From IMG/VR virus record IMGVR_UViG_3300037245_002187, positions 1 to 22,303 of that record: a stretch of DNA of 22,303 nucleotides; one strand, written 5' to 3'. The stretch comes from a virus. Below the pieces are notes generated by a model, which was not told the origin of the DNA, made no database searches, and saw only the letters and a list, made by a program, of their open reading frames with translations. Positions 844 to 21,255 of the stretch are shown one piece after another. The first letter of the stretch is position 1, and the number at the start of each line of letters is the position of its first letter. The translations under genes and the position numbers were made by a program.

Positions 844-1314
844 ATGACAACACGGTATACTAATGGATACCACGCACAGATACTTGATATCCTTACAGAA
901 GATGGTACACTTATGCCCAATAGGACTGAGCTGGCTCGCCGTATGGGTATAGATAGAGATACATTGTACAACAACTTCACTGGTGAGGAGTTGACTGAGG
1001 TATACAATGAAGCACTGGATATAAGACGTAAGCAATTGGCTGGTAAGAGTGTGGAGGTAGACAGGGCTCTACTTAAGGCAGCACTAGCAGGAGACACACA
1101 CGCCATAAAGCTCTACTACCAGAGACATGAGGGCTGGTCTCCCACCACTAAGATAGAAGGTGACATCACTCATATGACTTTAGCAGAGAGGTTGATGCAG
1201 ATAGAGAAGGGTGAAGCCGCGGCCGGCACATCCACCCCATCCCTTCCACAGATAGAGGATACCAAGTTGGGAGACGACCACGTCGCTCCAACCTCCGACA
1301 CGGAGGTGTCATAG
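844..1314 (+). CDS. Terminase small subunit (TerS-like DNA-packaging protein)
   Basis: This is the likely small terminase subunit, which recognises the phage packaging site and recruits the large subunit. The 156-aa protein has an N-terminal helix-turn-helix (about residues 26-45, TELARRMGIDRDTLYNNF) typical of DNA-binding TerS. A helical middle follows (LLKAALAGDTHAIKLYYQR, about 76-94), a pattern seen in phBC6A51-type HTH small terminases. The tail is Pro/Thr-rich and acidic and probably disordered. The start is preceded by GAGAGGAC. The stop overlaps the GTG start of the bS21-like gene by one base, and TerL lies 0.7 kb downstream, which supports the assignment. The last 24 coding bases also carry an RNA hairpin that controls access to the next gene's ribosome-binding site. 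A plain HTH regulator is the alternative. Confidence 0.75.
   Translation: MTTRYTNGYHAQILDILTEDGTLMPNRTELARRMGIDRDTLYNNFTGEELTEVYNEALDIRRKQLAGKSVEVDRALLKAALAGDTHAIKLYYQRHEGWSPTTKIEGDITHMTLAERLMQIEKGEAAAGTSTPSLPQIEDTKLGDDHVAPTSDTEVS
1291..1310 (+). promoter_or_regulatory. SD-sequestering hairpin with mutually exclusive alternative, upstream of rpsU-like gene
   Basis: ACCTCC (1291-1296), the same sequence as the 16S anti-SD core, pairs perfectly with GGAGGT (1302-1307), the SD of the GTG start at 1314, around a GACAC loop. The loop bases GACAC (1297-1301) can instead pair with GTGTC (1306-1310), which leaves GGAG exposed in a 4-base loop. The two folds exclude each other. Because the element lies inside the end of terS, translating ribosomes should melt it, which would couple the two genes. 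The SD itself (GGAGGTG, 1302-1308) complements the 16S 3' end over seven bases. Confidence 0.6.
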
Positions 1315-1520
1315 TGCCAATAGATAAATGTAAGCCACTAGAAGTAAGGGTGGGGGACTACCGTACGTTTGAAGCAGCAGTGAAGAAGTTCAGGAAGAAG
1401 GTAGAGAAGGAAGGCAGACTCAGAGAAGCCCTTAAAAGACAGTACTATACCAAGCCTTCACAGCTTAAACACAACAAGCGCAGGACTGCAGCATATATCA
1501 GAGACAAGTACGGATCTTAG
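1314..1520 (+). CDS. rpsU: Phage-encoded ribosomal protein bS21 homologue
   Basis: bS21 sits on the 30S platform beside the 3' end of 16S rRNA and helps mRNA recruitment. This 68-aa, strongly basic protein aligns without gaps to E. coli bS21 (recalled sequence) with a 7-residue offset. Matching positions are F19, F26, E31-K32, G34, L36, E38, R42, Y44-Y45 and the K47-P48 signature, followed by a basic C-terminal helix. The start is GTG, overlapping the terS stop by one base and preceded by a perfect GGAGGTG. Viruses carrying bS21 are known from cultured and metagenomic phages; the copy here lies between terS and terL. The bacterial C-terminal extension is slightly shorter. It could replace or compete with the host protein on ribosomes; that role is inferred. 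Confidence 0.85.
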   Translation: MPIDKCKPLEVRVGDYRTFEAAVKKFRKKVEKEGRLREALKRQYYTKPSQLKHNKRRTAAYIRDKYGS

Positions 1521-1768: not shown

Positions 1769-1960
1769 ATGGCTGACTTAACCTTAGACGTTCTAAGGTG
1801 TGTCACTCAGAACCTACCCTCCAATTACGCACTGATGATCCGACAATTCGACTGCGACGCCTTGGAATGGTTTACTGTTCCAGTAAACCTAATTGGAATT
1901 ACAGATGACAACGAGGTTCTATTTCTACATGATCCAGATGGCCAACCATCTCCACCGTAG
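1769..1960 (+). CDS. Small hypothetical protein (63 aa) upstream of terL
   Basis: The 63-aa product begins MADLTLDVLRCVTQNLP and ends in an acidic, Pro-rich tail (DPDGQPSPP). It contains no motif I recognise and no membrane segment. A purine-rich SD (AAAGAGGAAAG) precedes the ATG at good spacing, so translation is plausible. It lies alone between the bS21-like gene and the large terminase, with a 52-base gap before terL. Small genes between the two terminase subunits are common in phages and often unassigned. The evenly mixed, soluble-looking sequence suggests a small folded cytosolic protein. No function is claimed. Confidence 0.55.
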   Translation: MADLTLDVLRCVTQNLPSNYALMIRQFDCDALEWFTVPVNLIGITDDNEVLFLHDPDGQPSPP

Positions 1961-2012: not shown

Positions 2013-3440
2013 ATGACTGATAACGTGACCAAGGACTTCATAGCAAGATCACAAGAAGACTTCCTCTATTTTAATCAATGCGTCTGGGGAACCTGGGGCA
2101 TGCCCTGGGATAAACAGATTGACGTTTGGGAGTCGGTCAAGAATCATAAAAGAACGACTGTACGCTCAGGCCACTCCACTGGAAAGTCCTTTATTGCAGG
2201 GAAACTAACCATATGGTCTTTATTCTGTTGGCCTGACAGCTACGTGATCACTACAGCCCCCACACAGAGACAGACAGACCTAATTCTATGGTCAGAGATA
2301 AGACAGTGCTACAATAAGAGCTTAATCAACCTAGGTGGCAATCTGCTACCGCGGGCCTCTGAATTACACATAGGAGACAAGTGGAAGGCGTTTGGCTTCA
2401 CCACTGGGAAGGGAACTGTAACAGATGTAGGCCAAACACCCATGGCCGGGTTCCATTCCAACTCTAGAGTGTTCGTTATTATAGATGAGGCAGCTGGAGT
2501 AGCCCCTGGTCTCTTCTCTGCAGTGGAATCTATCACTACAGGTGGCAACGATCGCATACTGGCGATCGGTAATCCCACCGATCCACAAGGAGAGTTTGCA
2601 AGATCGTTTAAAAGTCCTGGTCCTGATGTGTATGGTGGGTGGAACAAGCTCAAGATAAGCACTCTGGATACTCCGAACGTCAAGGCAGGTAAGGATATTA
2701 TACCCGGACTGGCCTCCCATACCTGGCCTGAGGAGATGAAAGTAGCTTATGGAGAGGGAACCCCGATGTATCAAGCCAAAGTGCTTGCTGAGTTCCCTTC
2801 ATTCTCTGATGACGCTTTAATCCCCATGCATTTCCTAGATTTAGCTCTAACCAGGAAAATAGAAGAAATTAAGGAAGTTCCTAAGTATAACAACATCGGT
2901 TGTGATATTGCACGATTTGGCGGCGATGACTCCGTCATCTATGAAGTGCGGGGTGCATTCGCTAAAAGAAAAGGGAAGTATAGTAAAAAGGATACTGTGG
3001 AAGTAGGAAGGAAGATCCACGAGATGCAAGAGAAGGAAAAGTATACCAGGATAAACATTGACGACGATGGAATTGGGGGAGGCACTGTGGACTATCTTCG
3101 CAAAGTGGCTGAACTCAAGAACATAATACGCATCAACGGGAACGCGAGACCGTCCCAACCAACCAAATTCTACAATAAGAGAGCTGAGCTCTTCTGGGAT
3201 TTGAGACAGCGCTTTGTGGATAGACAGGATATCATCTTAGACTGTCCTACTACCGCAAGTGAGCTTGCTGCCATCGAATACGAATATGTAGTTAAAGGTG
3301 GTGAGGGAGTAGTTAAGATCAAGGATAAGAAAAAGATCAAGAAGACCCTTGGTTTCAGCCCGGATAACTCTGATGCCCTAGCTTATGCAGGAAACAACAG
3401 AGCCAGGCGCCCCACACCAGGTGCGGTACAATTCGTATAA
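2013..3440 (+). CDS. terL: Terminase large subunit (packaging ATPase and nuclease)
   Basis: TerL drives ATP-dependent DNA packaging into the prohead and cuts the genome concatemer. In the 475-aa protein the Walker A loop is SGHSTGKS (residues 52-59) and the Walker B is VFVIIDE (153-159), with catalytic E159. The ATPase coupling segment is AIGNPT (184-189). The C-terminal RNase H-like nuclease shows acidic clusters at D298 (GCDIARFGGDDS), D350-D352 and D454 (NSDALAYA). Length and domain order are normal for phage TerL. The start is the only good in-frame ATG after the stop at 1977-1979. Its SD is poor: AAGGGG is about 20 bases away, and ATAGG (1992-1996) can pair with CCTAT (2001-2005) just before the start, so initiation may be weak or regulated. 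The portal follows after 12 bases. Confidence 0.95.
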   Translation: MTDNVTKDFIARSQEDFLYFNQCVWGTWGMPWDKQIDVWESVKNHKRTTVRSGHSTGKSFIAGKLTIWSLFCWPDSYVITTAPTQRQTDLILWSEIRQCYNKSLINLGGNLLPRASELHIGDKWKAFGFTTGKGTVTDVGQTPMAGFHSNSRVFVIIDEAAGVAPGLFSAVESITTGGNDRILAIGNPTDPQGEFARSFKSPGPDVYGGWNKLKISTLDTPNVKAGKDIIPGLASHTWPEEMKVAYGEGTPMYQAKVLAEFPSFSDDALIPMHFLDLALTRKIEEIKEVPKYNNIGCDIARFGGDDSVIYEVRGAFAKRKGKYSKKDTVEVGRKIHEMQEKEKYTRINIDDDGIGGGTVDYLRKVAELKNIIRINGNARPSQPTKFYNKRAELFWDLRQRFVDRQDIILDCPTTASELAAIEYEYVVKGGEGVVKIKDKKKIKKTLGFSPDNSDALAYAGNNRARRPTPGAVQFV

Positions 3441-5112: not shown

Positions 5113-5973
5113 ATGTCAACTCAATACAAACACATGAACTTTGACGTGAAGGCAGTTGGCGATGATACGCTTACCTTCGTCGGAAGTGATGAGACAGTTG
5201 ATCGCTATCAAGAGGTCATCAAATCAGATGGCTGGGACTTCAAGGCATACAAGAAGAACCCGGTAGTGATGCTTTTCCACAATTATGCCTCATTGCCCAT
5301 AGCCAAAGCCACCAAGGTCTGGGTAGAGAACAAGAAACTGATGTTCAACATCAAATTCGTACCCATGGACTATGGAGAGATAGGCTCCTTAGCGGATACC
5401 GTTAAGAAGCTCTACGAGAACAAATTCATGTCGGGTGTTTCCGTGGGACTTATCGCCCACGAAGTCGAGAGGGCAGAGCCAGACAACAAGAAGGGAATCT
5501 ACCAGTATATCACCAAGGCAGAGCTCCTAGAATTGAGTCTGGTACCTATACCGGCCAATCCTTCGGCTTTAATCACCTCTCGCGGTATCAAAGATGCTAT
5601 GGATGCAAAGGCAGTTGACGTTGGAGAGATGCAACATCTTCAAATGGCCTTAGATGAAATGATAGAAGCAGCCCAGAAGGAAGAGGACGATGCCGTCCTC
5701 CAAATCCTTAAAGACATGTGCAGCACAGAAAACATCATCCCTGAGGTCTTTTGCTCAGACTGCAATAACCTCCTGACGATGTCGTGCGATGAGTGCGATT
5801 CTGATGAAATAGACTGTGACTGCAAAGAATGTGACGATTGTAAGGCTCTTCTAGAGCCTTCAACATATGATCTACTTCTGGAAATCCGGTCAGAGCAGAC
5901 CAAGGAACCTTCTAAAGAGGAAGATCTGATCACTCAAAGGTTAATATCGATCTTTGAGACTCCAACTGAGTAA
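5113..5973 (+). CDS. Prohead maturation protease (S78-type) with Cys-rich insert
   Basis: This HK97-type prohead serine protease trims the capsid protein's scaffold domain and other head proteins inside the prohead. The catalytic domain spans about residues 1-155: His56 (VVMLFHNYASLPIA), the nucleophile Ser110 in SGVSVGL, and the acidic/Pro-rich LLELSLVPIPANPSA motif (138-152). A helical segment follows, then residues 203-243 contain nine cysteines (203, 214, 217, 225, 228, 235, 237, 240, 243) with three or more CxxC knuckles and many Asp/Glu. This is unusual for the family and suggests metal binding. The end is a helical acidic tail. The gene starts 4 bases after portal. The protease domain is well supported; the role of the Cys segment is unknown. 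Confidence 0.88.
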   Translation: MSTQYKHMNFDVKAVGDDTLTFVGSDETVDRYQEVIKSDGWDFKAYKKNPVVMLFHNYASLPIAKATKVWVENKKLMFNIKFVPMDYGEIGSLADTVKKLYENKFMSGVSVGLIAHEVERAEPDNKKGIYQYITKAELLELSLVPIPANPSALITSRGIKDAMDAKAVDVGEMQHLQMALDEMIEAAQKEEDDAVLQILKDMCSTENIIPEVFCSDCNNLLTMSCDECDSDEIDCDCKECDDCKALLEPSTYDLLLEIRSEQTKEPSKEEDLITQRLISIFETPTE

Positions 5974-5988
5974 CGGAGAACACTCTTT

Positions 5989-7170
5989 ATGAGCTTAACT
6001 GAAGAGCAAAAACTCCGGGGAATCCTTGATGAGGTCGTTTCAAAAAGGTCCGATGAGCTCAAGACTGAGTTCGAAGAGCGCCAAGAGGCACTAGCCCACA
6101 AGCTAGAGGCCATGGACTCTGAGACAAAAGCGAAGTGGGAAGCTCTGGCCGCACAGCCAGCGCAACCGATGGACCTACCAGTCCCGGGCAAGGACAAGAC
6201 CGTACGTCTCTACAAGGGTTATAATCTAGACCGTCAGTGCATGGAACTGAAAGTTATCGATCAGGACAAACGCGATATCATCGCTAAGACCTTCATCGAT
6301 GCGATCACCCGTGCCGCCCTAGCTGAAGGCGCAGGCCCAACTGGTGGATATCTAGTCCCCGACGAGTTCGCGGATGAGCTTCTGGCGTATGCTCGTCTCG
6401 GTTCACTGGCGCTGAATAAGTGCCGCATTTGGAGTATGGCGGGAAAAACGCTTTATATTCCAGGTGAGGACGGAACTGTGACAGTAGTGTACACAGATGA
6501 AGCGGTGGCAGCTACCGAAAGCAATCCAACTTTTAGGCAGGTCCCCTTGACCGCTGTAAGACTGGATGCTTTCGGCGTAATGTCCTCGGAAGTGCAGGCA
6601 GATGCACAGATCGATCTCGTATCGAACGTGTTCGAGCAGTATGCGCAAGCTATTGCCGTGCAACTAGATTCGGATCTATTTGTAGGAACCTCCCCATTTA
6701 CTGGTATCAAAACAGCTGCTTCGGTCAATCTCGTGACCATGGCAGCTGGAGATGATGAGTTCGCAGACATCGACGCAATTTATTACAGCGAGATGATCGG
6801 TGCTCTACCGGTGAACAAGCTCGGCAACGCCGAATTCTACTTCGGTAGAACAATCGGGCACAGGACTCGCTCCCTGTCCGATACCACAGGCCAGCTGATC
6901 TGGGGTCAGTTCGCAAGCGGTGAGCCAAATACCATATACGGATATCCCGTAAACACGTCGGATGCTTTTCCTGCCGACTCAAATGACGAGATGGCTGTAG
7001 TGTTTGGTGATCTGAAGAGAGTTGCCTTAGGCATCCGCCAGGGCATGGAATTCTCGATTGATCCTTATGGTTTATGGACTTCAAGCCAGATCCGCACCAA
7101 GGTTACAATGCGTGTGGCGATGGTAGTGGCCCAACCTGACGGATTAGTGAGACTCTTCACTATCGCGTAA
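5989..7170 (+). CDS. Major capsid protein (HK97 fold)
   Basis: This is the main shell protein. The 393-aa product starts with a charged, coiled-coil-like stretch (about residues 1-60), resembling the HK97 delta scaffold domain that the upstream protease removes. A Pro-rich linker (QPAQPMDLPVPG) follows and is a likely cleavage zone. The HK97-fold body has recognisable phage_capsid features: GPTGGYLVPDEFADELL (N-arm/spine start), TFRQVPLTAVRLDAFGVMSSEV, and the C-terminal YGYPVNTSDAFPA and VFGDLKRVALGIRQGMEFSIDP. The SD is GGAG (ACGGAGAACACTCTTT-ATG). It lies directly after the protease. The folded RNA region that follows it (7184-7255) probably tunes expression of the next gene relative to this abundant product. 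Confidence 0.93.
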   Translation: MSLTEEQKLRGILDEVVSKRSDELKTEFEERQEALAHKLEAMDSETKAKWEALAAQPAQPMDLPVPGKDKTVRLYKGYNLDRQCMELKVIDQDKRDIIAKTFIDAITRAALAEGAGPTGGYLVPDEFADELLAYARLGSLALNKCRIWSMAGKTLYIPGEDGTVTVVYTDEAVAATESNPTFRQVPLTAVRLDAFGVMSSEVQADAQIDLVSNVFEQYAQAIAVQLDSDLFVGTSPFTGIKTAASVNLVTMAAGDDEFADIDAIYYSEMIGALPVNKLGNAEFYFGRTIGHRTRSLSDTTGQLIWGQFASGEPNTIYGYPVNTSDAFPADSNDEMAVVFGDLKRVALGIRQGMEFSIDPYGLWTSSQIRTKVTMRVAMVVAQPDGLVRLFTIA

Positions 7171-7260: not shown

Positions 7261-7425
7261 ATGGATAACAAAATGATGGACCCAGCAAAGCCTAATCTCT
7301 TCAAGTATATTAGGGTATGCAGTAAGTGCGCTCACAGAGAGACATACGATAAGCAGGACAACTCAAAGTGTGGATCCTGCGGAGCAGGAACACCATTCAG
7401 TCTTACCAGAAATCGAAGGAGCTAA
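7261..7425 (+). CDS. 54-aa zinc-ribbon-like protein
   Basis: A short gene missed by ordinary length cut-offs. The 54-aa product begins MDNKMMDPAKPNLFKYIRVC and contains two knuckles, CSKC (residues 20-23) and CGSC (37-40), separated by 13 residues. The layout is that of a rubredoxin-like or zinc-ribbon fold, so one structural zinc is likely. It has a good AAGGAG SD at 7250-7255, which is the strand buried by the upstream RNA switch. It ends with its own AAGGAG that serves the next gene, whose ATG is 4 bases after the stop. It sits between capsid and connector, a place where phages often carry small head or cement proteins. Its exact role is unknown. Confidence 0.75.
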   Translation: MDNKMMDPAKPNLFKYIRVCSKCAHRETYDKQDNSKCGSCGAGTPFSLTRNRRS

Positions 7426-7429
7426 CCAG

Positions 7430-8080
7430 ATGTCTACAACTAGCAGCACAAGCACCTCCAGCACCTCCAGTAGTAGTAGCACTACCACCACTACGATGCC
7501 GATCGAGGTCTTTGTGACTACAGACGACATGAAGAACTATCTGGGGGACATGGACGATATTTCTAGCTCTGAAGAGAATCTCCTACAGCAGATGATCGAC
7601 GGTGTGCTTGATCTATTTGAAGCCTACACCAATAGGAAGTTCGCCAGAGATGTCTTTGTTGAAGTCCACGATGGTGAATACTCAGATAAGCTGTTCCCAA
7701 AGAACGTGCCTATTACGGAGATCAACTCGATCCATCAGTCTACAGATCAGACCTGGGATAGCACCACAGTCTTGGCTGCCACAGATTATGTCATAGCACA
7801 CAATACCTATGTCCAGTACATGACTCAAAGGACACTTCAGTGGCCACAGTCGATACGAATCTCCTATACGGCAGGATACACCACAGATACGTTCCCGCAG
7901 GACCTGAAACTTGCTCTCATTGAGCAAGTTGCTTATAAGTTCCAACAGGAATACTCTGGTAGGAAGCTAGGCGTACAGTCTATGACTGCACAGGACGGTA
8001 TCGTTACCTTCCAGATGCAGAAGCTACTGCCAAGTGTCGTACTGGTCCTCAACCGTCATAGGAAGATGAATCTAGGCTAA
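7430..8080 (+). CDS. Head-tail connector (gp6-like) with Ser/Thr N-terminal tract
   Basis: This adaptor ring protein probably docks under the portal. The start at 7430 is chosen because AAGGAG lies 8 bases upstream; an in-frame ATG at 7370 lies inside the preceding zinc-ribbon gene and has no such signal. Residues 2-22 are exclusively Ser/Thr (21 of 21). The body then follows the phage gp6-like connector pattern: VTTDDMKNYLGD, a helical ENLLQQMIDGVLDLFEAYTN, a beta section, SIRISYTAGY, and the LKLALIEQVAYKFQQE helix. At 216 aa it is slightly long for the family because of the tract. Its TAA overlaps the next ATG (TAATG). Connector family membership is likely; the role of the Ser/Thr tract is unknown. 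Confidence 0.82.
   Translation: MSTTSSTSTSSTSSSSSTTTTTMPIEVFVTTDDMKNYLGDMDDISSSEENLLQQMIDGVLDLFEAYTNRKFARDVFVEVHDGEYSDKLFPKNVPITEINSIHQSTDQTWDSTTVLAATDYVIAHNTYVQYMTQRTLQWPQSIRISYTAGYTTDTFPQDLKLALIEQVAYKFQQEYSGRKLGVQSMTAQDGIVTFQMQKLLPSVVLVLNRHRKMNLG
7433..7495 (+). repeat. Ser/Thr-only coding tract in connector N-terminus
   Basis: Low-complexity DNA built from AGC, AGT, ACT, ACC and TCC codons encodes 21 consecutive Ser/Thr residues. It matches in style the tracts at 9336-9398 and 12653-12898, so the same kind of element decorates three separate virion proteins. Confidence 0.85.
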
Positions 8081-8924: not shown

Positions 8925-9401
8925 ATGGCCCAGATTATGGGAAAGAACGCTTCCATATACTTAGGAAACGATATGGTAGCCCAAATGGTGGAGTATTCCA
9001 TCAACGTCAGCGCAGAACATGCGGGAGAGGCAGAATTTGGTGACGACTGGGATCGTACTATTGGTTCCGCTCTGAATAGTTTCACCATGACCATGTCTGG
9101 GCTAGCAAGCGTGGTGGATACCGCAGGTCAGGATATCCTTGAGGCAGCCGCATTAAACGGCAACAAGATTACCGATCTCAAGCTATTCGTCGAGACACGG
9201 GCAAATGGAGCAAAGTATTGGTGGGCAGACTACATTAATGACTCGGCTAACGCCGGAGTCTTCGTGGAGTCTTTCAATGTGACCTCTCCTAGAGGTGGCG
9301 TTGTAGGCCTAGAGATTACCCTGAAGGGTACGGGTACTTTGACCACAGCCACTCACACAACAACCACTACAAGTACTTCAACAACGACTACTACACCGTA
9401 A
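8925..9401 (+). CDS. Tail tube protein, paralogue 1, with Thr/Ser C-terminal tail
   Basis: Probable major tail (tube) protein of 158 aa. It shares close similarity with the next gene: both begin MAQ..GK and share GEAEFGDDWDRT(I/V)GSAL, GQD(I/V)LEAAAL and PRGGVVG(L/I)EIT(L/I)KGTG. It differs by a 21-residue C-terminal tail (138-158) made almost only of Thr/Ser, with Leu, Ala, His and a final Pro. The SD is AAGGAG (ATAAGGAGATTCAATC-ATG). Tube proteins of other siphophages often carry extra C-terminal surface domains (for example Ig-like in lambda gpV); here the simple tract takes that place. Either paralogue could be the main tube subunit. The tube fold is inferred from gene order and repetition. 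Confidence 0.78.
   Translation: MAQIMGKNASIYLGNDMVAQMVEYSINVSAEHAGEAEFGDDWDRTIGSALNSFTMTMSGLASVVDTAGQDILEAAALNGNKITDLKLFVETRANGAKYWWADYINDSANAGVFVESFNVTSPRGGVVGLEITLKGTGTLTTATHTTTTTSTSTTTTTP
9336..9398 (+). repeat. Thr/Ser-rich coding tract at tube paralogue 1 C-terminus
   Basis: This low-complexity segment of ACA, ACT, ACC, AGT and TCA codons encodes 21 residues, of which 17 are Thr or Ser. The paralogue at 9415 lacks it and ends soon after the shared KGTG motif, so the tract was gained by one copy or lost by the other. Confidence 0.8.
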
Positions 9402-9414
9402 GGAGCATTAAACC

Positions 9415-9831
9415 ATGGCACAATTACTTGGTAAAGATGCCGCTTTCAAAATCGCTACCGTAACGGTAGCCCAGATGGCTGAGTGGGCACTCAACATCGC
9501 CTCTGAAAACGTCGGCGAAGCTGAGTTCGGAGATGATTGGGATCGCACTGTAGGTTCAGCTCTGCTGACCTGGACTGCTACAGTCTCTGGTTTTGCATCC
9601 GTTACCGATAGTAATGGACAGGATGTCCTAGAAGCGGCAGCCCTTTTGGGAACTAAGCTGACAACTCTACGTTTCTACGTAGATGCGACTAATTACTGGA
9701 CTTCGGATACCGGTACTGACGCTACTGCCGGCGCCTTCATCGAGAGCTGGAACATTACAGCACCTCGAGGTGGAGTCGTAGGTATCGAAATTACTATCAA
9801 GGGTACCGGTCCACTGCACAAAACATCGTAA
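9415..9831 (+). CDS. Tail tube protein, paralogue 2
   Basis: The 138-aa product is a tandem duplicate of the preceding protein, co-linear along its whole length and identical at many positions (for example EAEFGDDWDRT and PRGGVVG). It lacks the Thr/Ser tail and ends in a short PLHKTS. SD: TAAGGAGCATTAAACC-ATG. Two adjacent tube-like genes may form mixed tubes, or one may serve a special position such as the tube end, with the other the main subunit. The sequence cannot decide which. The chaperone genes follow after 31 bases, as expected for the tail module. Confidence 0.78.
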   Translation: MAQLLGKDAAFKIATVTVAQMAEWALNIASENVGEAEFGDDWDRTVGSALLTWTATVSGFASVTDSNGQDVLEAAALLGTKLTTLRFYVDATNYWTSDTGTDATAGAFIESWNITAPRGGVVGIEITIKGTGPLHKTS

Positions 9832-12649: not shown

Positions 12650-13249
12650 ATGACTACCAGTTCTTCAAGTACATCCACCAGCACCAGTACTACTAGTAGT
12701 ACCAGTACAGTCACGACTAGTAGCACCAGTACTAGCACTAGCACACATTCTACTTCTACTGCCTCTACCACTAGTAGTACTTCAACAACTTCTAGCACAA
12801 CTACGTCAAGTTCCACCTCTGTTACGTCAAGTTCAACCAGTTCTACGGCAAGTTCAAGTACAAGTTCATCAAGTACAAGTTCAAGTACAACAACTACAGC
12901 TCCAATACCTACACTTAACTACACTCCGACTTATGCTTCCAAGAAAAAGACCAAGCCTAGGATTCTCATCGCAGATCTGGGTGATGGCTACCGGACCAGG
13001 GCTCCAGATGGGATCAACTATCTGGATCTAGAGTGGACTGTAATCTTCGTAAAGGCTAAGGCTACTATCGATGCTATTGAAGCCTTCTTTGAAGAACGTG
13101 GTGGGTATGGAGCCTTCATCTGGCAGGATCCGCGCAGTGGTACAGACGACATCTGGACCTGTGCGGAGTGGAAAAGAGTTTATATGGGCGACAAGGTAGA
13201 TAAACTAACCTGCAAGTTCCGCAGGGAATTCGACCTATACGGGACATAA
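12650..13249 (+). CDS. Minor tail protein M-like with giant Ser/Thr N-terminal tract
   Basis: The C-terminal half (residues about 89-199) matches lambda gpM-like minor tail proteins, which act at the tail tip. Features are KPRILIADLGDGYRTRAPDG, then NYLDLEWTVIFV, IDAIEAFFEERGGYGAFIWQ and a terminal strand with CKFRREFD. Residues 2-83 are 77 Ser/Thr out of 82 (the others are Val21, His33, Ala38, Val58 and Ala67), a mucin-like extension not part of the normal family, which is close to 110 residues. A strong SD (AAGGAGAGAAGTAA-ATG) shows that the tract is translated from its own start. Downstream is the L-like gene, in the lambda order M-L-K-I-J. The tract may be glycosylated, act as a flexible spacer, or both; that is inference. 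Confidence 0.8.
   Translation: MTTSSSSTSTSTSTTSSTSTVTTSSTSTSTSTHSTSTASTTSSTSTTSSTTTSSSTSVTSSSTSSTASSSTSSSSTSSSTTTTAPIPTLNYTPTYASKKKTKPRILIADLGDGYRTRAPDGINYLDLEWTVIFVKAKATIDAIEAFFEERGGYGAFIWQDPRSGTDDIWTCAEWKRVYMGDKVDKLTCKFRREFDLYGT
12653..12898 (+). repeat. Long Ser/Thr-coding microsatellite-like tract
   Basis: 246 bases of degenerate AGT-ACT-ACC-AGC-TCA repeats, with short perfect repeats such as AGTTCAAGTACAAGTTCA near 12850-12890. Such DNA is prone to slippage and recombination, so the length may vary between relatives. The opposite strand also reads open as a Val/Leu-rich chain, an artefact of the repeat. Confidence 0.85.
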
Positions 13250-15338: not shown

Positions 15339-18300
15339 ATGTCTGAGATTCAATACTATAAAGGTAAGAAGGGAGGAGGTTGTTTTCCTTCTGGCACCAT
15401 GATCGAAGCCCCGGATGGGCATAAGCCCATCCAAGAGTTCCAAGTCGGGGATCCTATTTGGTGCTATAACTCAAATGGTGAGTTAATTCAAGGTCAGGTA
15501 AAAGAGGCCTTCAAACATAGCCTCGAAGATACAGAGAATAGAGTTCTCTATATCTATCACGAGAGCGGAGTGCTGCGACCAACCTTCAATCACTATATCC
15601 TTACGGAAGAAGGCAAGTACAAGGAAGCCAAAGACTTCAAGATTGGAGAGAAGCTCACTAATGAGGCAGGTGACCTTAAAAGGATCCTGGCAGTAATTCC
15701 AGATCCGGATGAATATGATTATACCTACAATCTTACCGTATTTCCATTCCCCACCTATATTGCAGATGGCATAAAAGTCCATAATAAGGGTGGTGGAAAA
15801 GGAGGCGGTAGCGAACAAAGAACACCTGTAGAGGACGCAAATAGCCTCCAGGCCCGCGGTATGGCTCGTCTTATCGACATTATGTGCGAAGGTGAGATCC
15901 ATGGGCTAGTAGATGGCGCCAAATCCATCTTTTTTGATGAAGTTGTCCACCAAAATGACGACAACTCATACAATTTCGACGGCGTAACCTACTATGAGCG
16001 AAAAGGGACCGCAGATCAAGACATAATTAGTGGTTTCAAGGACAGTGAAGGCGAACACTCCGTACAGATAGAAGTTACCGAGCAGGGTGGTGGCATTATA
16101 CGCCAAATTACCGATACAGAGGTCGATGACGTACGCGTAACCGTACAGGTACCACAGCTTTATCAAGTTAATAATGAGACTGGCGACATCCAAGAGCATA
16201 CAGTCCAAATGCAGATCCACGTGCAGCCTTTTACTGGTAATTTCTCGTCTGTAGCCACAATCAATTTAGCAGGCAAGTGTACTTCTGCATATCAGAGGTC
16301 TGTGCGCATTACGGGCCTAGCCAACTATGGCCCAGGTCCCTGGAAGATCAAAGTTACCAGAACAACCAAGGATTCAGATTCTGTCTATTTTATCGACAGG
16401 ACATATTGGTTCTCCTATACTGAGTTAATAAATGAGCGATTTTCGTACCCTCACAGTGCTCTTATAGGGCTGGAAGTCAACGCGGAACAGTTCGGGGACC
16501 GTATTCCCAACCGTTATTATCACATTAAGGGCATGAAGATCAAATATCCATCCAACTACAACCCTACAACCAGAGTTTATACCGGTGAGTGGAATGGGAC
16601 TTTTGTTACCGGGTGGACGGACAATCCTGCGTGGGTTTACTATGATCTTGTGAACAATTCCAGGTATGGTCTTGGTCTTAACGCTGCCTACATAGATAAA
16701 TGGGGTCTGTACACGATCGCTCAGTATTGCGATACTCTGGTCGACGACGGATTCGGTTCTACCGAACCGCGCTTCACGTTCAACGGTGTAATCCAGTCTC
16801 GGGCAGAAGCCTACTTTGTCATGACTATGATCTGTAGTTGCTTCAGGGCGATGCCATATTGGGCCTCAAATACAGCATACGTCTCTCAGGACAGCCCAAA
16901 AGCCGCCTCAAAACTAGTCACCGCAGCCAGTGTTATCGGTGGAGAGTTCATTTATGAGTCTTCAGGTCTCACAGGGCGTAGGACAGTCGCAAATGTGACC
17001 TGGAATGACCCAGCCGATTTTTACAGACCGGCCGTAGAGCAAGTTCAGCACGATTTAGGTGTTAACAGATATGGATTTAAGCCAATAGATGTCCAGGCAT
17101 ACGGCTGTACGTCCAGAGGCCAGGCTCACAGGCTTGGTAAGTGGATTATCGACTCAGAGTACAGTGAAACAGAGTTAGTGCGCTACAGAGCCTCCTGGGA
17201 CCACGTAGATGTAGTTCCGGGCGACATCATCAAGATAGCCGATCCCCACTATGCTTCTAATGCGGAATTTGGGGGTCGCATCGATAATGCGACCACCACA
17301 TCTATCACTCTAGATAGGGAAGTGACCCTAGACGGGGTTACGGCATATACTCTCTGGTGTACTTTACCGGACAATACTATTGAAGAGAAAGATGTCCTTT
17401 CTGGAGTCGGTACTCACACCACTTTGACAACTGTAGCCTTTAGTTCTGCTCCACAGAAGCATGCACTTTGGGTGCTTACCTCAAACGTCCTAACTACTAG
17501 AGACTTCCGTGTCCTAACCATCAAAGAGTCAGAGCCTCATATCGCAGAGATCCATGCACTAGAATATGATGCAACTAAGTTCGCCAGAGTCGAACAAGAC
17601 ATCTATTTAGATACCACACCAGTCTCTCAGACTCCTAGTGGTCCATTGATTGCCCCTACCGGTCTCACTATTCAAGAATACCATCGAATGGAAGGCCAAA
17701 ACTCCCTTTTTGGTGTGATTATCTCTTGGGAACCATCGGCAGACAACAGAGTTATCCTCTATGAGGCACAAATTAAGCAAGATGGCGACTACCAATGGAC
17801 GACAATCGGAAATTCTACCACAAATAGCATCACCATCCAGAGTCTAGAGGCAGGTACATACGATTTTAGAGTGCGTGCTAGGTCTTATACACTGATGTCT
17901 TCCTGGATATCGACATCTGAGGTCATTGATAATGACCCAGATGCCCCACCTGACATCGAAGGATTGCAGGTCGCTGGTGGTGGAACCCAATACACCGGGA
18001 AGAACATAGAAATCGAGTGGACAGAGAGCGCAGACCCGAAGATTCTCAACTATAAGGTAGATGTCTACATGTACGTGGATGACGTTTTCCTCCGTACAGA
18101 GTACGTACCTGTCGGCCGCTATACTTACTTCTGGGACTACAATCTAGAAGATAATGGTGGTGTAGGCAAGAGAGCAATTAGATTTAGGGTCTATGGTCAG
18201 GATGTCCATGGTAAATTCTCTAACAATCCGGCAGTTCTTGTCGCATCTAATCCTCCACCCGACATGTCTGGTTCTTCACCGACAATTACGCCTATCTTTA

Positions 18301-20045
18301 ATGGACTCAAGATCGATTGGGGAGCCATTCAGCCAGCAGACACTGATCTCGATAAGTATAAAGTCTATATAAGTGCCTTTAGTCCACCAACTGATATTGT
18401 AGGTGTCGTGGATAAAAACACGCTTATCCATTACCCCGGGGGCCTACGTTCTGATACTACTTATTATGTACAGATAGAGCCGTGGGATCTTTGGGGTCCT
18501 GGCACAAAAACAACCCCCACTTCGGGCTATGAACCGCTTGAGGTTCCTCAGTTCAATATTGATTCCGAGCTGTCTGAAAACATCACCATGACGGACTTCG
18601 ACGGGAACAATGCGGCCGCTCTTATCTCACTTTATGACAGGAATAAGACGAGTGGAGGAGTGTCTTACACTATTGGTGGCACGGATAAGTGGATTGACTA
18701 CACATTCCCAATCAAGATGCTTATAGATCGTATTGCAGTCTGGGTATCTGACAGTATGGATGTGTACGTTGCCTATACGGAGGACGGGACAACCTGGAAC
18801 TGGCTCAAAGCTGAAGCAGATCACACTCTCACCAGTACGAACGAGTTACTGGCTGGTGCCAATCAGGCAGACTGCCAGACGAACTACTGGACGCTCCCAG
18901 CGTCCGGCAAGCATGTCGCTATCTTTCCACAGCAGACTGTGGCGAAGGCTGTACGTCTGTACATGATGGGTAGCGTCACTAGGTCCATTTACGAGCTAGT
19001 CTTCTTCCGGGAAGTACTAGCAGAGTACATTATAGCCGATTATCTATCAGCCATCAGTGCCAATCTAGGTACGATTACCGCTGGTATTCTACAAAGTCCT
19101 ACTTGGGACGCAGATAATGGAATGCTCTTTGATTTGATTGCTGAAGCTGTAAAATTTGGTGGTGCAACAGACCCAAAATTTGATTGGGATGGTGGTACAA
19201 ATACATTAAACATCGGAGCAGTCGTAACATTTGAAAGCGCGTCATCAGGCTATTCTAACATAAGTGACAAACCTACAGACTTGGGTGATATTAATGAAGG
19301 TGAAGGAACCAAATTGACGGGTATTGCCACAGGAGCAGATGTAACAGGAGATAATACGGCAGATGATACAGATAAGGTTGGTGGGGTTGATGCTGCTACT
19401 ATCGCTGGTTGGAAATATGCTGGTCAAACAACCATTGATGGTGGTGATATTCAAACAGATACTATTACAGCAGTTCAAATTGGAGCGAATGAAATCATTA
19501 CAGTAGAGGCAAACATTGATAATGCTGTTATTAATACATTGCATCTAGCAGAAGCTGCTGTAACTGACTTTTCAAATTACTTCTCTACCGGAGATGTTTC
19601 TATAAACGCATGGACATATGGTACTTGGTATGATCTGTTTGAATTAGACTATGATATTTCACCAACACAAACAGATTATGGACTCATAATTAGTGGGCAA
19701 ATAGGCGCATCCACATCTTCATTTATAGATAGTGGCTATATTAACTATTCTGTTGGTTTGGAATATAAATGGATAATAAGTGTAGTTGGAGGAGCAACTA
19801 TACGAACATTTACAGACCGTATAGGTCAACTATTTACAGTAAAACAAGCGGTTCAAGGTGTATTCTTTTATCAAGAAGATTCAGGTGGTAATTTTAATGC
19901 TTATATCACAGATTCAAGTTTTAGTGCTGATGATACTGTTAGACTTACTTTACAAGCAAGACGGATTACTGGAGGTGGCACCTCCGCCACAGTAACCGGA
20001 GATATATCACTTAGATTTGGAAGTATAACGGGGTTGAAAAAATAA
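15339..20045 (+). CDS. Tip attachment / host specificity protein J-like, with Hint domain
   Basis: Lambda gpJ-like central fibre that binds the receptor. The 1568-aa product has a Gly-rich N-terminus split by a Hint domain (15-149). The conserved tip body covers about 160-760: SYNFDGVTYYERKG, RYYHIKGMKIKYPSNYNP, YGLGLNAAYIDKWGLYTIAQ, CTSRGQAHRLGKWIIDSE and TLDREVTL parallel lambda J closely. Three fibronectin-III-like modules follow (about 766-865, 868-970, 971-1067). Next is a discoidin-like (F5/8) carbohydrate-binding-like region (about 1072-1227, for example VYVAYTEDGTTWNW and VAKAVRLYMMGS). From about residue 1255 the DNA becomes AT-rich and the sequence is a different, probably exchanged, distal end. 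The SD is AAGGAA. It is longer than lambda J (1132 aa) because of these additions. Confidence 0.93.
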   Translation: MSEIQYYKGKKGGGCFPSGTMIEAPDGHKPIQEFQVGDPIWCYNSNGELIQGQVKEAFKHSLEDTENRVLYIYHESGVLRPTFNHYILTEEGKYKEAKDFKIGEKLTNEAGDLKRILAVIPDPDEYDYTYNLTVFPFPTYIADGIKVHNKGGGKGGGSEQRTPVEDANSLQARGMARLIDIMCEGEIHGLVDGAKSIFFDEVVHQNDDNSYNFDGVTYYERKGTADQDIISGFKDSEGEHSVQIEVTEQGGGIIRQITDTEVDDVRVTVQVPQLYQVNNETGDIQEHTVQMQIHVQPFTGNFSSVATINLAGKCTSAYQRSVRITGLANYGPGPWKIKVTRTTKDSDSVYFIDRTYWFSYTELINERFSYPHSALIGLEVNAEQFGDRIPNRYYHIKGMKIKYPSNYNPTTRVYTGEWNGTFVTGWTDNPAWVYYDLVNNSRYGLGLNAAYIDKWGLYTIAQYCDTLVDDGFGSTEPRFTFNGVIQSRAEAYFVMTMICSCFRAMPYWASNTAYVSQDSPKAASKLVTAASVIGGEFIYESSGLTGRRTVANVTWNDPADFYRPAVEQVQHDLGVNRYGFKPIDVQAYGCTSRGQAHRLGKWIIDSEYSETELVRYRASWDHVDVVPGDIIKIADPHYASNAEFGGRIDNATTTSITLDREVTLDGVTAYTLWCTLPDNTIEEKDVLSGVGTHTTLTTVAFSSAPQKHALWVLTSNVLTTRDFRVLTIKESEPHIAEIHALEYDATKFARVEQDIYLDTTPVSQTPSGPLIAPTGLTIQEYHRMEGQNSLFGVIISWEPSADNRVILYEAQIKQDGDYQWTTIGNSTTNSITIQSLEAGTYDFRVRARSYTLMSSWISTSEVIDNDPDAPPDIEGLQVAGGGTQYTGKNIEIEWTESADPKILNYKVDVYMYVDDVFLRTEYVPVGRYTYFWDYNLEDNGGVGKRAIRFRVYGQDVHGKFSNNPAVLVASNPPPDMSGSSPTITPIFNGLKIDWGAIQPADTDLDKYKVYISAFSPPTDIVGVVDKNTLIHYPGGLRSDTTYYVQIEPWDLWGPGTKTTPTSGYEPLEVPQFNIDSELSENITMTDFDGNNAAALISLYDRNKTSGGVSYTIGGTDKWIDYTFPIKMLIDRIAVWVSDSMDVYVAYTEDGTTWNWLKAEADHTLTSTNELLAGANQADCQTNYWTLPASGKHVAIFPQQTVAKAVRLYMMGSVTRSIYELVFFREVLAEYIIADYLSAISANLGTITAGILQSPTWDADNGMLFDLIAEAVKFGGATDPKFDWDGGTNTLNIGAVVTFESASSGYSNISDKPTDLGDINEGEGTKLTGIATGADVTGDNTADDTDKVGGVDAATIAGWKYAGQTTIDGGDIQTDTITAVQIGANEIITVEANIDNAVINTLHLAEAAVTDFSNYFSTGDVSINAWTYGTWYDLFELDYDISPTQTDYGLIISGQIGASTSSFIDSGYINYSVGLEYKWIISVVGGATIRTFTDRIGQLFTVKQAVQGVFFYQEDSGGNFNAYITDSSFSADDTVRLTLQARRITGGGTSATVTGDISLRFGSITGLKK
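15381..15785 (+). other. Hint (intein-like) domain inside J
   Basis: Residues 15-149 of the J-like protein form a mini-intein-sized Hint domain with no endonuclease. The N-terminal splice block is CFPSGTMIEAPDGHKPIQEF with the nucleophile Cys15. Block B is PTFNHYIL with Thr82 and His85. The C-terminal blocks are YNLTVFPFPTYIADGIKVHN, ending in His148-Asn149. The next residue is Lys150, not the Cys/Ser/Thr needed for normal splicing. The flanks are Gly-rich (KKGGG before, KGGGKGGG after), the same place as the short Gly/Ser start of lambda J. All the cleavage residues are present, so autocleavage or an unusual splicing route is possible. Confidence 0.87.
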
Positions 20046-20595: not shown

Positions 20596-21255
20596 ATGTC
20601 CCGACTTATTAGAATACAAGAACTCGAGGTAGAGGATCACATTATAGAGCGTGACAAGCTCTTCCAAGTGTACGTCTTCGGTCTGCCGCGCTCTGGCACA
20701 TCTATGATGACCAGAGTTTTGGAACTTCTAGGGGTGAATATGATCTACACCTCAGAGGAGAAGAAAGAGGAGTCTGACGAGAGATTCAAGAAGAAGTTCG
20801 GTGAGTATCATCCCAATCCCACAGGCTTCTATGAGGTAACAAGAGATCAGTTTAAGATGTTCGCAAAGGTTGTGTCTACCCCCTATGGTGGATGTAAAAT
20901 GATAGTTCCTGTCTCAGGTGTCAGGTGGGAGATCGTAAGAGATTTCCCTAGTAAGGTAATCCTCATGCTGCGAGACGCAGAAGAGATCAGGCAGTCCCAG
21001 ATGGCCTACTATAGAGAGGTAGATATAGATGTGGCCGCTATTAAGACGCTCCTTGTACAAGAGAAGCTAAAGCTCAAGAACCACAAGATCCCCTTTCTTG
21101 CAGTGGACTACAGACAGGTCTTAGAGGATAAGGTCTACATGGTTAAGCAGATCGCTGAGTTCATACGAAGCGATGTGGACCCACAGGCAGCTATAGGTTT
21201 CATCAATCCTAAGCAGAACCGCTTCAAGGCGGAACAGCTGGAGGCAGGCATTTGA
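20596..21255 (+). CDS. Sulfotransferase-like protein
   Basis: Sulfotransferases move sulfate from PAPS to hydroxyl or amine groups. The 219-aa protein has the 5'-phosphosulfate-binding loop GLPRSGTS (residues 29-36). It also has the 3'-phosphate region KVILMLRDAEEIRQSQ with Arg126 and Ser134 eight residues apart, the family's usual spacing. The product is short but includes both PAPS motifs; the acceptor-specific part is small. It has no signal peptide. SD: AGGAGAAGAGGT-ATG. Composition returns to the normal phage level here, so it is not part of the AT-rich island. It lies between the fibre region and another putative surface protein, which suggests modification of host glycans, of phage fibres or of the Ser/Thr tracts. 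That is speculation. A P-loop kinase is the alternative. Confidence 0.75.
   Translation: MSRLIRIQELEVEDHIIERDKLFQVYVFGLPRSGTSMMTRVLELLGVNMIYTSEEKKEESDERFKKKFGEYHPNPTGFYEVTRDQFKMFAKVVSTPYGGCKMIVPVSGVRWEIVRDFPSKVILMLRDAEEIRQSQMAYYREVDIDVAAIKTLLVQEKLKLKNHKIPFLAVDYRQVLEDKVYMVKQIAEFIRSDVDPQAAIGFINPKQNRFKAEQLEAGI

Follow-up and report, generated by a model that had tools for sequence, protein, structure and literature searches.

A ribosomal protein bS21 homologue located between the terminase genes of a virus with siphophage-type layout

The ribosomal protein most commonly encoded by viruses is bS21. More than a thousand viral genes for it have been described, and the product of one of them, from phage HTVC008M, enters E. 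coli 70S ribosomes (PMC6375957). What might such a gene do between the genes of the small and large terminase subunits? We analysed a stretch of viral DNA (the window) that comprises a whole IMG/VR record of 22,303 bases, a figure that is the length of the record and not an established genome size. We compared it with its relative L003, an IMG/VR contig of 20,532 bases.

The gene, its product and its place

The genes of the window run in the order terS, terL, portal, apparent protease, MCP, tail genes, probable tape measure and gpJ-like tip (protease and tape measure were called by order and length only); judged by this order, the layout is of siphophage type. The features discussed below, in window coordinates, are as follows.

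844..1314, + strand: terS, terminase small subunit, 156 aa (phrog_24579, E 6.7e-10; 52% identical to L003 4407-4820)
1266..1292, + strand: hairpin 1 (predicted), GTTGGGAGACGAC-CAC-GTCGCTCCAAC, within the 3′ end of terS and ahead of bS21 (arms identical in L003 5730-5760)
1291..1307, + strand: hairpin 2, ACCTCCG-ACA-CGGAGGT, predicted to sequester the bS21 Shine-Dalgarno (SD) sequence, window only (RNAfold MFE and centroid)
1302..1308, + strand: bS21 SD, GGAGGTG (anti-SD pairing −13.4 kcal/mol, the strongest of the window genes scored)
1312..1316, + strand: TAGTG, terS stop and bS21 GTG start with one base in common (read from the sequence)
1314..1520, + strand: bS21 ribosomal protein homologue, 68 aa, GTG start (PF01165, TIGR00030, phrog_21469; model and PDB matches)
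1314..1340, + strand: N-terminal extension of 9 residues (MPIDKCKPL) ahead of the bS21 domain (PF01165 starts at residue 10; pattern kept in L003)
1494..1496, + strand: Tyr61 codon, the counterpart of Tyr54 in Flavobacterium johnsoniae bS21 (7jil_z aligned without gaps at offset 7)
1769..1960, + strand: 63-aa ORF between bS21 and terL, of no known family (Pfam/PHROG searches)
2013..3440, + strand: terL, terminase large subunit, 475 aa (phrog_2, E 2e-34; 76% identical to L003)

An earlier note, made from the letters alone, had read the 68-aa product as a bS21 homologue and proposed a PF01165 search and a structure prediction as checks; both bear the reading out. PF01165 matches residues 10-61 with E 1.6e-11 and 44.2 bits (curated cut-off 27), TIGR00030 scores 40.7 bits (curated cut-off 28.95) and phrog_21469 matches with E 2.2e-8; by these scores the profile matches are far beyond chance. 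The AlphaFold model, whose input held 22 locus-derived bS21 sequences (pLDDT 80.6, pTM 0.42), has predicted helices at residues 19-33/35-43 (19-43) and 48-66, joined at the KP linker as in the bS21 fold. The top PDB rows returned by Foldseek were all bS21 chains, with modest E-values (0.018 at best). Against bacterial bS21 chains VIA-align gave Z 5.3-5.8 and rmsd 2.0-2.6 over 55-60 residues; among the controls, mitochondrial bS21m reached Z about 4 and unrelated helical rows Z 3 or less. The alignment to bacterial bS21 had been described as gap-free, which holds for bS21 of the Flavobacterium type (52 columns) and fails for Escherichia-type chains, where a 2-residue gap follows KP. The best cellular matches are from Desulfobacterota (49%) and Geobacter (46%), and identity to any cellular bS21 found is about 50% at best.

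The GTG start was correctly said to overlap terS: the overlap is one base, with the terS stop TAG at 1312-1314 and the GTG at 1314-1316. The claim that the gene is embedded between the terminase genes stands as to order (terS-bS21-terL) and needs amending as to neighbours: bS21 shares the interval with the 63-aa ORF and 248 nt without a called + strand gene. It lies on the strand of terS, terL and portal. On the + strand from terS to terL we found no terminator-like site and one weak promoter-like match only, a scan that leaves unsupported the idea of a moron acquired by transfer along with a promoter and terminator of its own. The stretches 558-843 and 1521-1768, which flank the terS-bS21 pair, have no called + strand gene and are a possible location of a packaging site. 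A tRNA search found none.

Several other window genes deserve mention. The gpJ-like tail tip protein (15339-20045) has a Hint domain near its N-terminus (PF07591 PT-HINT, E 2e-7, residues about 11-151) that starts GGG|CFPSGT and ends VHN|KGGG; given the Lys after HN, cleavage rather than full splicing is possible. A sulfotransferase-like protein (PF13469, E 4.9e-6) is encoded beyond the tail genes at 20596-21255. Three structural-module proteins (7370-8080, 8925-9401 and 12650-13249) have long Ser/Thr-rich low-complexity stretches. The adjacent, similar tail-type proteins at 8925-9401 and 9415-9831 apparently arose by tandem duplication, and L003 has a matching pair.

Conservation in a relative and placement in other phages

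The earlier note looked to relatives that keep the gene, and L003 is one. Its bS21 (5784-5999), likewise inside the terS-terL interval, is 49% identical to that of the window and collinear with it from residue 1. The N-termini align as MPIDKCKPLEV (window) and MPLERAKPLQV (L003), with the common pattern MP[IL][DE][KR]xKPL; the GTG start is supported because the L003 protein, whose gene starts with ATG, can be aligned with it one to one from position 1. Identity at codon positions 1/2/3 is 0.72/0.68/0.38, and judged by this profile bS21 is under protein-level constraint (purifying selection), with third positions nearly saturated. L003 has lost the KP motif, and its bS21 is uncoupled from terS and runs into terL instead. 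The small ORFs around the gene differ between the two phages (one between bS21 and terL in the window, several between terS and bS21 in L003), and bS21 is therefore the persistent element of the interval.

In L003 the start region of bS21, comprising its ribosome site and initial ten codons, appears twice, at 5692-5731 and 5775-5814, 83 bases apart; with 33/60 positions identical at offset 83, the duplicate looks like a tandem copy of the bS21 start. A 30-aa ORF (5701-5793) with its own SD spans hairpin 1, and its end overlaps the bS21 start.

None of the next 80 TerL relatives (27-36% identical, many of them fragments) had bS21 above the family cut-off, and therefore the gene was most likely gained in the lineage of the window and L003. 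This lineage is sampled by two genomes with bS21 between terS and terL; protein scans with window queries missed the L003 bS21, so further relatives may have been missed too.

The earlier note had called a bS21 gene that overlaps terS in the packaging module of a lambda-like layout unexpected. A place close to packaging genes is not: bS21 lies near packaging or head genes in jumbo phages (PMC9723584) and in T4-like contigs. In the Bacteroidetes jumbo phages of Chen et al. 2022, the gene sits in a conserved region, about five genes or fewer from TerL, portal, protease and MCP, is expressed with the structural genes, and has been proposed to act by late-stage ribosome substitution (PMC9723584). 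The window and L003 share this packaging/head-gene location, which characterizes late-module phage bS21. The jumbo phages are, however, 293-331 kb myoviruses whose bS21 and structural genes lie on opposite strands, whereas the window is a 22-kb record of siphophage-type layout in which bS21 lies between terS and terL and shares their strand.

Searching for viral bS21 with a nucleotide pattern encoding A-[hydrophobic]-KKF-[KR]-KKV, we matched 37 viral stretches, all 37 with bS21. In the T4-like groups inspected, bS21 adjoins, on the same strand, the head maturation protease (phrog_207) and MCP (phrog_138) genes and lies between them, while in the window and L003 it lies between terminase genes. 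Late-module bS21 has at least three arrangements (jumbo phages, T4-like groups and the window lineage). Among the loci examined (many with short flanks, and with a TerL profile that may miss distant terminases), none outside the window/L003 lineage had bS21 between terS and terL; a literature search that combined S21 with both terminase subunits also found none. Like the window, pelagiphage HTVC008M and other aquatic phages have a bS21 homologue under purifying selection (Mizuno et al. 2019, PMC6375957). Huge-phage rpS21 has an N-terminal extension too (Al-Shayeb et al. 2020, PMC7162821); that of the window is only 9 residues long and has no aromatic. Divergent bS21 genes in similar neighbourhoods, possibly phage-derived, occur in gut Clostridia and Bacilli MAGs (L097, 4965-5183; L095, 4986-5210), and the L097 genome additionally has a normal bS21.

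New in the present locus are the place of the gene between terS and terL in a siphophage-type layout, a predicted hairpin that precedes bS21 in both phages with the same arms, a strong SD that appears to be hidden (window only) and Tyr61.

The bS21 leader

The arms of hairpin 1 (GTTGGGAGACGAC/GTCGCTCCAAC) are the same in both phages around loops of CAC (3 nt) in the window and TTAAGTA (7 nt) in L003. The window hairpin is made of terS codons. That of L003 also immediately precedes bS21, although the terS stop is ~900 bases upstream. Since the loop change shifts the reading frame, the match does not come from protein constraint. Counting 60 places, the arms would be kept by chance with a probability of about 1e-2 at 70% identity and 3e-4 at 60%, and the conservation ahead of both bS21 genes is therefore suggestive only; two sequences cannot show covariation. 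Stability alone is undistinctive, as about 0.4-4% of stretches are as stable, depending on the window length used. Rfam found nothing in the leader; its four weak matches lay elsewhere and fell short of the gathering scores. A search for the hairpin pattern matched zero genome contigs; a relaxed pattern matched three further viral contigs with no bS21 in the fetched stretches, which we took as chance.

In other phages cos and pac sites occur within or near terS. Hairpin 1 also lies within or near terS and the DNA near it is rearranged in L003, so a packaging site on the DNA (cos or pac), or a remnant of one, is a possible reading in place of an RNA regulator of bS21. We consider it unlikely: in L003 the hairpin is far beyond terS yet directly ahead of bS21, and a difference of 4 bases in arm spacing would fit poorly with a rigid DNA dimer site and do no harm to an RNA hairpin.

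In the fold predicted for the window, the bS21 SD region is about 19% unpaired and the start codon about 1%. The L003 leader has no second hairpin corresponding to hairpin 2, and its bS21 SD reaches −8.2 only. In both phages an upstream frame crosses hairpin 1 and terminates on the bS21 start codon. For the window, the hidden SD and the stop-start overlap suggest the classical picture of translational coupling, here with terS.

A role at the host ribosome, rival readings and Tyr61

We think it probable that the gene encodes a late, terS-coupled phage bS21 that exchanges into the host 30S subunit to support or skew initiation. It would be expressed late, probably co-transcribed with terS. Because the terS stop overlaps the bS21 start and the SD is folded away, ribosomes finishing terS would most likely open the SD and reinitiate on bS21. 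The product may then take the seat of host bS21 on the platform, next to the 3′ tail of the 16S rRNA, and support or skew initiation during capsid and terminase synthesis, preference for phage mRNA being the unproven part. Late substitution is an already published hypothesis (PMC9723584, PMC6375957, PMC7162821) that appears plausible here. The HTVC008M protein had a strongly impairing effect on E. coli ribosomes in vitro (PMC6375957), which leaves room for inhibition rather than preference. Further evidence against this explanation comes from L003, where bS21 lacks KP and is uncoupled from terS; the form of coupling seen in the window is not conserved.

It is doubtful, though conceivable, that the gene is a copy for ribosome maintenance against shutoff, which only replaces host bS21 lost in infection and confers no mRNA preference. 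bS21 is loosely bound and exchangeable (PMC6375957), and its loss or targeting in infected hosts has been speculated on (PMC9976891), both in keeping with such a copy; the window protein, however, is markedly unlike any cellular bS21 found, and mere replacement would need neither the N-terminal extension nor Tyr61.

We regard as improbable that a small basic protein derived from bS21 binds DNA or RNA and aids the terminase rather than the ribosome. Small accessory genes near the terminase are common, the gene lies between terS and terL in both phages and L003 is without KP, but the window protein keeps the bS21 signature positions and fold, neither terminase gene is its immediate neighbour in both phages, the 80 relatives with similar TerL have no bS21 match, and T4-like phages place the family by capsid genes instead.

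Tyr61 aligns without gaps with Tyr54 of F. johnsoniae in both the window and L003. A tyrosine at this position was seen in 0/88 cellular bS21 (three sampled phyla and named genomes, Bacteroidota not among them) and 0/34 other viral bS21 scored; with Bacteroidota outside the sample, either shared descent or convergence may explain the match. The F. johnsoniae protein helps to sequester the 16S 3′ tail, and Y54A raises translation of strong-SD reporters (PMC9976891). The window resembles F. johnsoniae rpsU (McNutt et al. 2023, PMC9976891) in the gap-free alignment, the Tyr54 equivalent and a very strong SD. Unlike in Flavobacterium, most window genes have an SD and that of bS21 is predicted to be hidden in a hairpin; L003 is without a very strong SD. 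The Bacteroidia-type pattern, with rpsU nearly alone in having an SD, below −13 kcal/mol, was found in neither phage.

SD motifs precede 17/21 window genes vs 18% of ATGs (p 5e-9). The host is therefore probably SD-using, unlike Bacteroidia, in tension with the Bacteroidia-like Tyr61, and a Bacteroidia host with SD-blind ribosomes is disfavoured. A host call from bS21 was also rejected: the Desulfobacterota and Geobacter matches conflict with the Flavobacterium-type Tyr61 and the top PDB matches. We left the host open because of this conflict and because Bacteroidota genomes are unsampled. A search of 58 genomes from the L092 phylum with TerL found nothing at E 1e-30.

A long shot, less probable than any reading above, is that a phage bS21 with the anti-SD-binding tyrosine of Bacteroidia would alter availability of the 16S 3′ tail in an SD-using host and so retune late initiation, with coupling to the terminase genes and the hairpin conserved in its leader setting its dose. 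Such anti-SD retuning, along with mRNA preference and autoregulation of bS21, is speculative.

The lineage of the window and L003 is apparently an independent case of phage bS21, in which the gene has been held in the terminase operon of a siphophage-type layout through considerable divergence. Repeated late placement of the gene by head or packaging genes in unrelated phages argues that selection keeps the timing of bS21, not its mere possession. Tyr61 and the leader hairpin lead to specific, testable predictions on anti-SD availability and dose control.
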